This document shows, piece by piece, positions 1-39,587 of a stretch of DNA of 39,587 nucleotides. Numbering within the stretch: the first letter of the stretch is position 1; each line of letters opens with the position of its first letter. The translations under genes were made by a program, and so were the position numbers. The DNA is from a virus: positions 1 to 39,587 of IMG/VR virus record IMGVR_UViG_3300021438_000033. One strand, 5' to 3'. The notes under the pieces were generated by a model that was not told the origin of the DNA, did not search any database, and saw only the letters and a list, made by a program, of their open reading frames with translations.

Positions 1-428
1 TGAGTCGGAGTGCCGGTCAGCTGACCAGGAGTACCAACAAGGTTGTAAACATTCAGGAACTGCTGAAGACCGTCATAATCGATCTTATTCGCAACAGCCG
101 CTACAGCAGGCTTGATGAAACGATCAGAGAAGTCGCTGATGTTCATCGTGAGATCCTGGGTCGTAAACGCCATGTCTACGCCGAACTGGGTTCCCAGAGT
201 CAGCGGTACATAGGTTTCAACAGAGGATTCAACCTGAAGCGCAGGGCCAGTACGACCGACATAACGCGGGGGTTTACGCAGATTGATAGTCGTACCAATC
301 TTTGCACCTTCGATTGCGAACTTATCGTCATACTGACGGCTAACTGCACGAGTAAATACCAACTGGTTGGTAAGTACGCGCAGAGCTTCGTTCGTAATCA
401 TACTAATAGTAAGCAACTGATTGCTCAT
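1..428 (-). CDS. Major coat protein, P22 gp5-like, intronless allele (3' end cut by window edge)
   Basis: First 142 codons of a P22-type (HK97-fold) major capsid protein that continues past the left edge. It starts MSNQLLTISMITNEALRVLT and is nearly identical in protein to the start of the spliced coat gene at the right end of the window. Near the edge it reads QLTGTPTQ where the other copy reads QLTNTVTPPTQ, so the two are real alleles and not a sequencing error. The start has a GAGG ribosome site about 8 nt upstream. The codons that flank the intron in the other copy are uninterrupted here (insertion point between bases 297 and 298). The simplest reading is that this end and the right end are the same locus from two strains, joined when a circular genome was assembled. 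Confidence 0.9.
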   Translation of the reverse strand, partial: MSNQLLTISMITNEALRVLTNQLVFTRAVSRQYDDKFAIEGAKIGTTINLRKPPRYVGRTGPALQVESSVETYVPLTLGTQFGVDMAFTTQDLTMNISDFSDRFIKPAVAAVANKIDYDGLQQFLNVYNLVGTPGQLTGTPT

Positions 429-17464: not shown

Positions 17465-17625
17465 ACAGCCATGAAACAGCCCTAGAAGAACTTCAAATGC
17501 TGCGCGCCTCTTTGCAAGTAGTCTCTTTTGCTTACATGAAAGATGCTCGATTGGTCGGCTCCGCTATAGCGTATTTAGCAATGTTGGAAGACTTGCTTAA
17601 AGAACGGCAAAAGGGGGAAAAATGA
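17461..17625 (+). CDS. Small helical hypothetical protein
   Basis: A 54-residue protein starting at the ATG that overlaps the previous stop (ATGA). It is a near-continuous helix (ALEELQMLRASLQVV, IAYLAMLEDLLKERQ). Upstream in-frame starts would overlap the previous gene heavily and are not used. Function unknown. Confidence 0.6.
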   Translation: MNSHETALEELQMLRASLQVVSFAYMKDARLVGSAIAYLAMLEDLLKERQKGEK

Positions 17626-18122
17626 GCGACAAAGAACTTACCCAGCTGGAATTACAAGAATGCCTTCGTTACGAGGAAGGTACAGGGTTCTTTTTCTGGA
17701 TTAAAAGAAACAGTAAACGCATAAAAGTTGGGGATAAAGCTGGAACAAGACCAAATTGTGATGGGTACGCAGAAATAATGGTGAACAATGTTTTGTACAA
17801 GGCTCATCGTTTGGCTTGGTTATATGTGTATGGCGAATGGCCTCAGAGTCAAATAGATCACATTAATGGCGATAGGTTCGACAACCGTATTGCAAATCTG
17901 CGGGACGCTACACCAAAGGAAAATTCTTACAATCGCATACGAGCAAGCAAAAATAACAAAACGTCTTTACTGGGCGTGGTGACAAAGCCGAACGGAACTT
18001 TTTACGCTGAGATTAGGGTAGAGAAAAAGAAGTTTCATCTAGGATCTTTCCCCTCCGCAGAGTTAGCGCATCAAGCATATCTTGAAGCCAAAGAAAAATT
18101 GCATACGATGGAGGCGGTATGA
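17622..18122 (+). CDS. HNH endonuclease with AP2 DNA-binding domain
   Basis: A 166-residue homing-type nuclease. The HNH core runs from AHRLAWLYVYGEWPQSQIDH to NPLR-like NRIANLRDATPKENSYN (about 61-104), with Asp79, His80 and the Asn residues at 88, 92 and 101. The C-terminal AP2-like domain is at about 115-160 (LLGVVTKPNGTFYAEIRV, FHLGSFPSAELAHQAY). It sits between small accessory genes, with ATGA overlaps on both sides. Free-standing enzymes of this kind spread by cutting related phages that lack them. Confidence 0.93.
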   Translation: MSDKELTQLELQECLRYEEGTGFFFWIKRNSKRIKVGDKAGTRPNCDGYAEIMVNNVLYKAHRLAWLYVYGEWPQSQIDHINGDRFDNRIANLRDATPKENSYNRIRASKNNKTSLLGVVTKPNGTFYAEIRVEKKKFHLGSFPSAELAHQAYLEAKEKLHTMEAV

Positions 18123-38008: not shown

Positions 38009-39576
38009 TTAACCAGTTACGCGGGTAGCGAGTTCGGGATAGATGGTTGACCAGCCGTACAGTACGTCAAGTCGGCAAGGCAGCTGATCGCTGTTAATGT
38101 CGTACTGACGAACAAGACGGATAGAAACGCCATCTGCTGATGCGCGTCCAGCCATGTCAACACCCTGCGGCAGAATGAGATCCGCTGTGCCGAAAGCAAA
38201 AGCATCACGATGGAATGCAATAGCGTTCGGGTAAGAAGAACCATTGGAGCCAGAGATAACGGAAGCGTTACCACTCGGGATCGTACCGGTTGTGCTAGTT
38301 ACGTTCTGGAACTGACCAGAGAATACCGGAGTCGGGAACACAGAAAGGGTCTGTGAAGAACCAGTACCGGTAACGCCAGCAGTAAGAACGAAGTTACGCA
38401 GTGCGCCAGTAGACTGACGGTTCTGCGGGTTGACTGCATATACACCAGGAATGGTGAAAACAGTACCCTGAGTCAGCGTCTTGCCAGAGCTAATCGTTGC
38501 AGTAAGAGAGAATGCAGTCTGAGCATTCGTCTGAACTGAACCACCAGCCTGTGCAGCAACTGCCAAAGTGTCAGTACCAACAATGAACGTACCAGAAGTG
38601 AAGTTGCCTACGTTCTGATCCATTGCCATATTGAAGCCGAGAGTATTGTCTCCAAGCGCACCTTTTTCAAAGATACGAGAGATAGTACCCTGCGGATTGA
38701 ACAGGTTAGTAAGACCAGAAACGATGCCAACTTCCACTGTCGGATCGACAACAAAGTGACGATCTTCGTCAACCGGAGCCGCTTCCTGATTCAGACGAGC
38801 GCGAGCAGCAAGGATTGCAGCCGTAGACTGAGCCTGAGTCGGAGGAGTAACGGTATTGGTCAACTGACCAGGAGTACCAACAAGGTTGTAGACGTTAAGG
38901 AACTGCTGGAGACCGTCATAGTCGATCTTATTCGCAACAGCCGCTACAGCAGGCTTGATGAAACGATCAGAGAAATCGCTGATGTTCATCGTGAGATCCT
39001 GGGTCGTAAACGCCATGTCTACGCCGAACTGTGTTCCAAGCGTCAGCGGTACATACGTTTCAACAGAGGATTCAACCTGAAGCGCAGGGCCGGTACGACC
39101 GACATAACGCGGGGGCTTACGCAGATTGATTGTGGTGCCGCATTTTCTTATGACTAGCTTTTTAATTTCCTAGTCCTAGCCTTTTCAAGCTAGATGAGAC
39201 TATATCTTCATCCCAGTAGGATGCAGGGCACTCTTGGAACTTCATCGACCGTTCTGGCCGGTATGTTCTAGTCGTTGAACCTTCAACTCATTCCTGAGTC
39301 GCTTGGCTGCTGATTTCCCAATCCTAAAACTTTTCAGTCCTTCACGCTTGTCTTTGCAGACTACGTTGTGGCATTTAGGCTCTAAGGGAGTTCCAGCAAT
39401 TCACCCTGTTTGCATCTAAACCTTACGGCTTAGAGAGACCAGTTGATCTTTGCACCTTCGATTGCGAACTTATCGTCATACTGACGAGAAACCGCACGAG
39501 TAAATACCAACTGGTTGGTAAGTACGCGCAGAGCTTCGTTCGTAATCATACTAATAGTAAGCAACTGATTGCTCAT
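38009..39576 (-). CDS. Major coat protein, P22 gp5-like, split by a group I intron
   Basis: Two exons: 39446-39576 (131 nt) and 38009-39140 (1132 nt). Joined, they give 420 residues and stop, close to the 430 of P22 coat. The splice falls in the Ile44 codon after its second base and restores GAKIGTTIN, the same as the uninterrupted copy at the left end. Without splicing, translation would stop in the intron after about six codons. The protein has P22 coat features: N-arm, AFTTQDLTMNISDFSDRFIK in the core and LDVLYGWSTIYPELATRVTG at the end. Ribosome site AGGT precedes the ATG; the promoter would be the one seen at the left end. Confidence 0.93.
39141..39445 (-). other. Group I intron (class IA-like), 305 nt, no ORF
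   Basis: The 5' exon ends in U and the intron ends in G, as required. P1 pairs exon AAAGAU with GUCUCU (one mismatch, U-G at the splice site), and CUG before it can pair with exon CGG (P10). P2 is CUAAGCC-GUAA-GGUUUAG. P, Q, R and S are present: AATTGCTGGAAC (39390-39401), AAATCAGCAGCC start at 39316, GTTCAACGACTAGA (39267-39280) and AAGATATAGTCT (39197-39208). P3 is CAGGG/CCCUG, P7 GACUA/UAGUC, P8 CAUCC/GGAUG, with two P9-type hairpins at the end. Extra bases between P7 and P3 suggest class IA. No endonuclease gene is inside. Confidence 0.97.
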
Positions 39577-39587
39577 AGTGATTACCT

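Follow-up and report, generated by a model that had tools for sequence, protein, structure and literature searches.

A group I intron of subgroup IA type in a P22-type coat gene, with a candidate core-less mini-intron in relatives

Introduction

Group I introns in phage capsid genes have been described before. The mycobacteriophage LittleE carries one in its major capsid gene, and its splicing was demonstrated by RT-PCR and N-terminal sequencing (PMC3706429). The same paper (PMC3706429) cites lactococcal phage Tuc2009 for a capsid-gene group I intron as well, and one is annotated in Bacillus phage SP-15 (KT624200). The window studied here, 39587 bases long, comprises an entire IMG/VR virus record and carries such an intron in its coat gene. 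Like LittleE, it has a major capsid gene interrupted by a group I intron, with U before it and G at its end; LittleE differs in having an HK97-type capsid and an 819-bp insert with an HNH gene (PMC3706429), whereas the window has a P22-type coat and an ORF-less insert of 305 nt. Tuc2009 and SP-15 are other phage types with introns at other positions, the SP-15 core matching that of the window at 72% over 136 nt. Among the matches listed (40 of 122), IA introns of Staphylococcus, Bacillus, Streptococcus and Pseudomonas phages, both ORF-less and ORF-bearing, share a core of 125-140 nt at 69-77% identity, but they lie in other genes and no record covers 80% of the window intron. The complete circular genome MW202674.1 (Manatee Spring) likewise has a P22-type coat gene split by a group I intron; that intron belongs to a second family (see below), sits after HVD and is unrecognised by Rfam.

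A literature search of open-licence papers found none on a group I intron in a P22-type coat gene. Capsid-gene introns are nevertheless already known from LittleE, Tuc2009 and SP-15, and the window intron adds another; an initial sequence-only reading of the window, which noted that phage introns are best known in DNA metabolism genes, was right to place an intron in the capsid gene, but that location is not new. No phage protein is more abundant than the coat protein, and a splicing-dependent coat gene therefore makes a stringent test of phage-intron splicing.

Results and discussion

The interrupted coat gene

The coat gene lies at the right end of the window in two exons:

38009-39140, minus strand: exon 2 of the coat gene, beginning CGGCACC and including the stop codon
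39141-39445, minus strand: group I intron, 305 nt, terminal G at 39141, from Rfam RF00028, structure and covariation
39446-39576, minus strand: coat-gene exon 1, 131 nt long (43 codons and 2 nt), 3' end ..GCAAAGAU

Joined in frame at the junction GCAAAGAT/CGGCACC, the exons translate into a coat protein of 420 residues. The exon-2 ORF matches PF11651 (P22_CoatProtein, E 5e-24) and phrog_283 (major head protein, E 5.5e-52), and the surrounding genes follow the P22 order, with P22_portal (E 4e-174), a scaffolding protein and a terminase; judged by the PF11651 match and this order, the coat gene is of the P22 type. Coat relatives in genomes, sought as a guide to the host, are only distant (40-46%, 7 genome loci, including Paraburkholderia and Burkholderia). 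Without splicing, the exon-1 frame hits a stop after 48 aa, and the first start codon in exon 2 gives a 335-aa ORF that begins 85 residues into the coat protein; gene callers would therefore lose 85 coat residues. Loss of the N-terminus had been foreseen from the letters, but its size had been put at 43 residues, which ORF translation corrects to 85. An ORF scan of the 305-nt intron found short frames only and no endonuclease ORF.

The complete group I intron claimed for 39141-39445 is borne out by a covariance-model search: above the gathering threshold of 50, RF00028 matches the minus strand at 39455-39176 with 85.9 bits (E 1.1e-20) over the full model, 1-253, which takes in part of exon 1, and Rfam finds only this one group I intron in the window.

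Fold, splice sites and covariation

The intron can be laid out in the following elements:

39436-39449, minus strand: P1, exon AGAU (39449-39446) with GUCU (39439-39436)
39138-39140, minus strand: P10, exon-2 CGG with intron CUG (39442-39440)
39416-39433, minus strand: P2 hairpin with GUAA loop, double changes in 4 of 7 pairs
39404-39408, minus strand: 5' strand of P3, 3' strand at 39228-39224, one double change
39308-39398, minus strand: P4-P5-P5a domain, P4 being 39398-39393 with 39313-39308
39284-39301, minus strand: P6 hairpin, from its pairs and the covariation alignment
39269-39273, minus strand: 5' strand of P7, GACUA, 3' strand at 39202-39198, invariant in five introns
39237-39268, minus strand: P7.1 and P7.2, between P7 and P3, double changes in both
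39209-39223, minus strand: P8 hairpin, from Rfam and standard pairs
39152-39193, minus strand: P9 and P9.1 hairpins, double changes in 7 of 13 pairs

Every one of the 72 pairs, across P1, P10 and P2-P9.1 including P5a, P7.1 and P7.2, is a standard pair in the window, and the conserved parts, the P2 hairpin with its GUAA loop among them, are as readable as had been claimed. The same is true of the U/G rule at the two splice sites: the last base of exon 1, U39446, faces G in P1 as a U.G pair, and the last base of the intron is G39141. The P3/P7 pseudoknot and the guanosine site in P7 have all their P3 and P7 pairs standard. P1 is short, with 4 bp in the window and 3 bp in L093 by eye. P7.1 and P7.2 between P7 and P3 are the mark of subgroup IA, and it is from these two elements that we place the window intron in this subgroup. 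A folding check, also named beforehand, agrees: the intron has a minimum free energy of -105.6 kcal/mol where shuffled sequences average -82.5 (z -3.87), and 0 of 100 shuffles fold as low.

Covariation was read from an alignment of five introns (window, L083, L084, L090 and L093), in which 98.3% of the 360 cells are paired. Double changes occur at 18 of the 72 pairs, against a shuffled mean of 6.7, and none of 500 shuffles reaches 18. Sliding the partners by 1 to 3 columns lowers pairing to 28-46% in these five introns, a control that somewhat favours the proposed structure because the window sequence itself served as the basis for drawing it. P4, P5, P5a, P7 and P8 do not vary in the five introns and are therefore backed by the family model and not by covariation here. 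P10 holds in 3/3 introns at the window site and is weak in L090 and L093; 80% of the P10 cells are paired.

An uninterrupted copy, probably an allele, at the other contig end

The left end of the window holds a second version of the same gene:

1-428, minus strand: 5' part of the coat gene without the intron, an intron-less allele at the opposite contig end
679-751, minus strand: tRNA (69.5 bits) lying shortly upstream of the coat gene, anticodon UGU (Thr) by eye

Positions 15-296 recur at 38858-39139 with 94% identity and positions 298-439 at 39446-39587 with 97%; the right-end copy has exactly 305 extra bases (39141-39445). Relative to the right-end exons, 21 of 413 nt differ in the left-end copy, nearly all at third positions, and 0 of 137 codons alter the protein; joining the exons at the proposed sites restores the frame and the protein of the uninterrupted copy, as the sequence-only reading had stated. 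That copy exists, but it is most likely the allele of a co-occurring strain at the same locus and not a second gene. Upstream of it stand the tRNA and the scaffolding gene, as with the intact coat gene of L002, and a tRNA likewise precedes the coat gene in L002 and L017. The simplest reading would be a single coat locus in a circularly permuted genome, the contig ends coming from a pair of co-occurring strains of which one has the intron and the other lacks it; that one genome holds two coat genes is left as a marginal possibility. The contig ends (1-439 and 38844-39587) overlap as two coat alleles. Though classed as linear, the record thus probably represents a circular genome that is close to complete.

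Splicing and its alternatives

Covariance model, covariation and uninterrupted allele agree, and on this agreement rests the group I reading with exact splice sites. Taken as a whole, the data are best explained, with a probability of about 0.92, by an IA intron of a mobile family that would be removed by guanosine-started splicing, its exons being rejoined into the 420-residue coat protein. In this proposal the intron would fold within the transcript into its P3-P8 core; guanosine bound in P7 would attack after U39446, positioned by P1; the freed end of exon 1 would then attack after the terminal G39141, lined up by P10; and the rejoined exons would encode the coat protein. We infer that the intron would splice without protein help and that capsid output would rely on splicing.

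It could be argued that the intron has decayed and no longer splices, the contig being a defective allele, since intron-less alleles are common (38 of 39 loci covering the site). However, all 72 pairs are intact in the window, the exons are open over their full length, and two more contigs, L083 and L084, share the site with intact exons and intron, which makes decay very improbable. These two contigs also bear on a wrong joining of intron and coat gene during assembly, a suspicion raised by a contig that ends inside the coat gene and whose two ends come from different alleles: the same junctions recur in L083 and L084, which are independent, and P1 and P10 match the flanking exon, so that the chance of such an artefact is negligible. 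Alternatively, the intron might be a switch, slow or protein-dependent splicing (by phage or host proteins) delaying the coat until late infection. Some phage introns are reported to splice in vivo and not in vitro (PMC11878797), but most relatives lack the intron, implying that such control is dispensable, and we consider a switch quite unlikely.

Spread of the window intron family

Coat relatives in IMG/VR number at least 594 stretches, and the best 80 of these at least 594 were used. The window clade is represented by 45 coat loci, 38 of them uninterrupted at the site, one (L004) with the intron and 6 not covering the site. A search with the exact exon-intron junction pattern returned L083, which is the contig of L004, and L084 as its two contigs; the intron-core pattern returned 11, every one confirmed by RF00028 (11/11); P22-type coat genes host four of the 11, namely L083, L084, L090 and L093. 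Plasmids gave only 2 intron-core matches. Insertion in the coat gene is at nt 131 (window, L083, L084), nt 23 (L090) or nt 32 (L093), each time after GAT; the three sites lie within 110 nt, in a family that has no endonuclease. The introns of the window and L093 are 95.1% identical at different sites, the coat genes being 89.6% identical over the first 413 nt. As judged from these comparisons, the intron family is mobile between sites without an internal endonuclease.

That the sites always follow GAT would fit either reverse splicing or an endonuclease encoded outside the intron. For such spread the textbooks favour reverse splicing, direct evidence for which is described as lacking (PMC3984707). 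The second option has a concrete candidate in the window, a protein with an HNH_3 match (E 1e-16) encoded at 17622-18122 on the plus strand, which could move the intron as a free-standing homing endonuclease (collaborative homing); ORF-less introns with separate endonucleases have been described (PMC3984707). Against it stand the three different insertion sites and the lack of a co-conversion tract: flank co-conversion, a usual trace of homing, was not seen when the window, L083 and L084 were compared with intron-less L002. We therefore hold a free-standing endonuclease to be unlikely. The window and L083 differ at 4 of 120 positions near the site and 43 of 293 far from it, the window and L084 at 9 of 120 and 46 of 293; co-conversion as a homing trace was dropped as a candidate because intron-less L002 shares the window flank equally. 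An intron present in some relatives and absent from most, at three nearby sites and with no endonuclease, makes RNA-level spread testable.

Introns of the window family also occur in other genes, capsid-like by eye, in L085, L086, L088 and L089, and an HNH-like frame lies downstream of the intron in L085, L086 and L088. The partial host frames of L086, L087, L089, L091 and L092 gave no Pfam match (none in 5/5).

A second intron family in another coat clade

A second coat clade (protein identity 46-51%) has other inserts. The 35 loci of this distant clade divide into 30 uninterrupted, 4 interrupted and 1 not covered, a split that accounts for L079, which is uninterrupted by the counting rule yet has other introns. 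At E up to 1, Rfam had no match for L055, L063 or L079; at E up to 5 it had none for L253, L114, L102 or L139 save an unrelated miRNA model. Nevertheless, 15 inserts share a consensus fold with the P3-P9 layout and double changes in 28 of 47 pairs (alignment A3), which marks the second-clade inserts as a group I intron family unseen by Rfam.

The core pattern of this family occurs in at least 120 stretches. Loci L117-L188 (72) were examined, L189-L225 being scanned only for an intron at nt 153; the coat gene is on the contig in 36 of the 72 new loci, and 33 of these 36 were mapped (L146, L149 and L180 were left out). Intron sites in the 33 lie near nt 109, 113, 135, 143, 153, 254, 326, 614, 1055, 1080, 1140 and 1150-1160, positions that are approximate since references differ between loci, and a single coat gene can hold up to three full introns (L122, L139, L187). 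These close relatives mark the coat gene as a favourite target of such introns. The consequences reach existing records: annotation drops the N-terminus of such coat genes, and the coat gene of MW202674.1 (L253:1201-2716) is already filed as a pair of P22 coat proteins together with a spurious hypothetical protein, a split that stems from the group I intron within it.

A mini-insert that may be a core-less intron

A much smaller insert, of 32-41 nt, follows coat nt 119 in 51 coat contigs (53 pattern matches, 2 of them outside coat genes); the window coat gene does not have it.

Mini-insert loci: L094-L116, L124, L129, L137, L141, L142, L144, L147, L181, L196, L219, L233, L236-L252

The insert shifts the frame or brings stops into it: in-frame stops are present in 26 of the 26 distinct cases checked, and excision after U and after G restores the AVVG(G/A)K of the clade. 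Within the insert, CCUGCCUCNG can pair with the joined exons CNGUGGU/AGG, a U.G pair falling at the splice site. Guide complementarity alone (9/10 pairs) was not convincing, being matched by 673 to 2546 of 20000 shuffled inserts in four haplotypes; only the covariation is. The search pattern fixed most guide bases but neither the exon base N nor its guide partner, and these two are complementary in 51/51 contigs, as T-A in 38, A-T in 11 and G-C in 2. What remains of the insert pairs with the following exon in a helix of 9-10 bp; across 22 distinct haplotypes 197 of its 198 cells pair, and one pair shows all four Watson-Crick forms; none of 2000 reshuffled pairings is as good (maximum 187). Unconstrained folding returns both hairpins in 8/8 haplotypes (z -1.4 to -3.0).

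In 49 of the 51 contigs the mini-insert is followed by a full group I intron at nt 153, 33-36 nt downstream; the other two end before it. The converse fails: L132, L190 and L199 have the nt-153 intron but no mini-insert. At 32-41 nt the mini-insert has no catalytic core of its own and does not qualify as an autonomous group I intron; it is too short for one, which makes the core of the neighbouring intron the natural suspect. We hypothesize, at about even odds, that it is a core-less mini-intron (guide P1/P10 plus next-exon hairpin) spliced by the core of the downstream intron: one ribozyme would serve two introns, as a natural cis-acting spliceozyme. Alternatively, some host activity might remove it. 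The contigs could also be non-functional alleles, an unlikely idea given that the pairing is conserved in so many of them. Ribosomal bypass of the T4 gene 60 type needs matched take-off and landing codons, and it was rejected because take-off GTA and the would-be landing TGA do not match.

If splicing by the downstream core is correct, one ribozyme found in nature takes out a second intron that lacks a core, an event long envisaged in accounts of how the spliceosome arose. Our literature search found no natural spliceozyme, such ribozymes having so far, within that search, been only engineered. If spliced as proposed, the mini-insert would be a new variant at least. In the engineered spliceozymes (PMC4509937, PMC4094466), the nearest analogue, a group I core removes an intron other than itself, which is what we propose for the mini-insert; those are designed and act in trans on a 100-nt intron, whereas the mini-insert, a candidate only, would be removed in cis and measures 32-41 nt.
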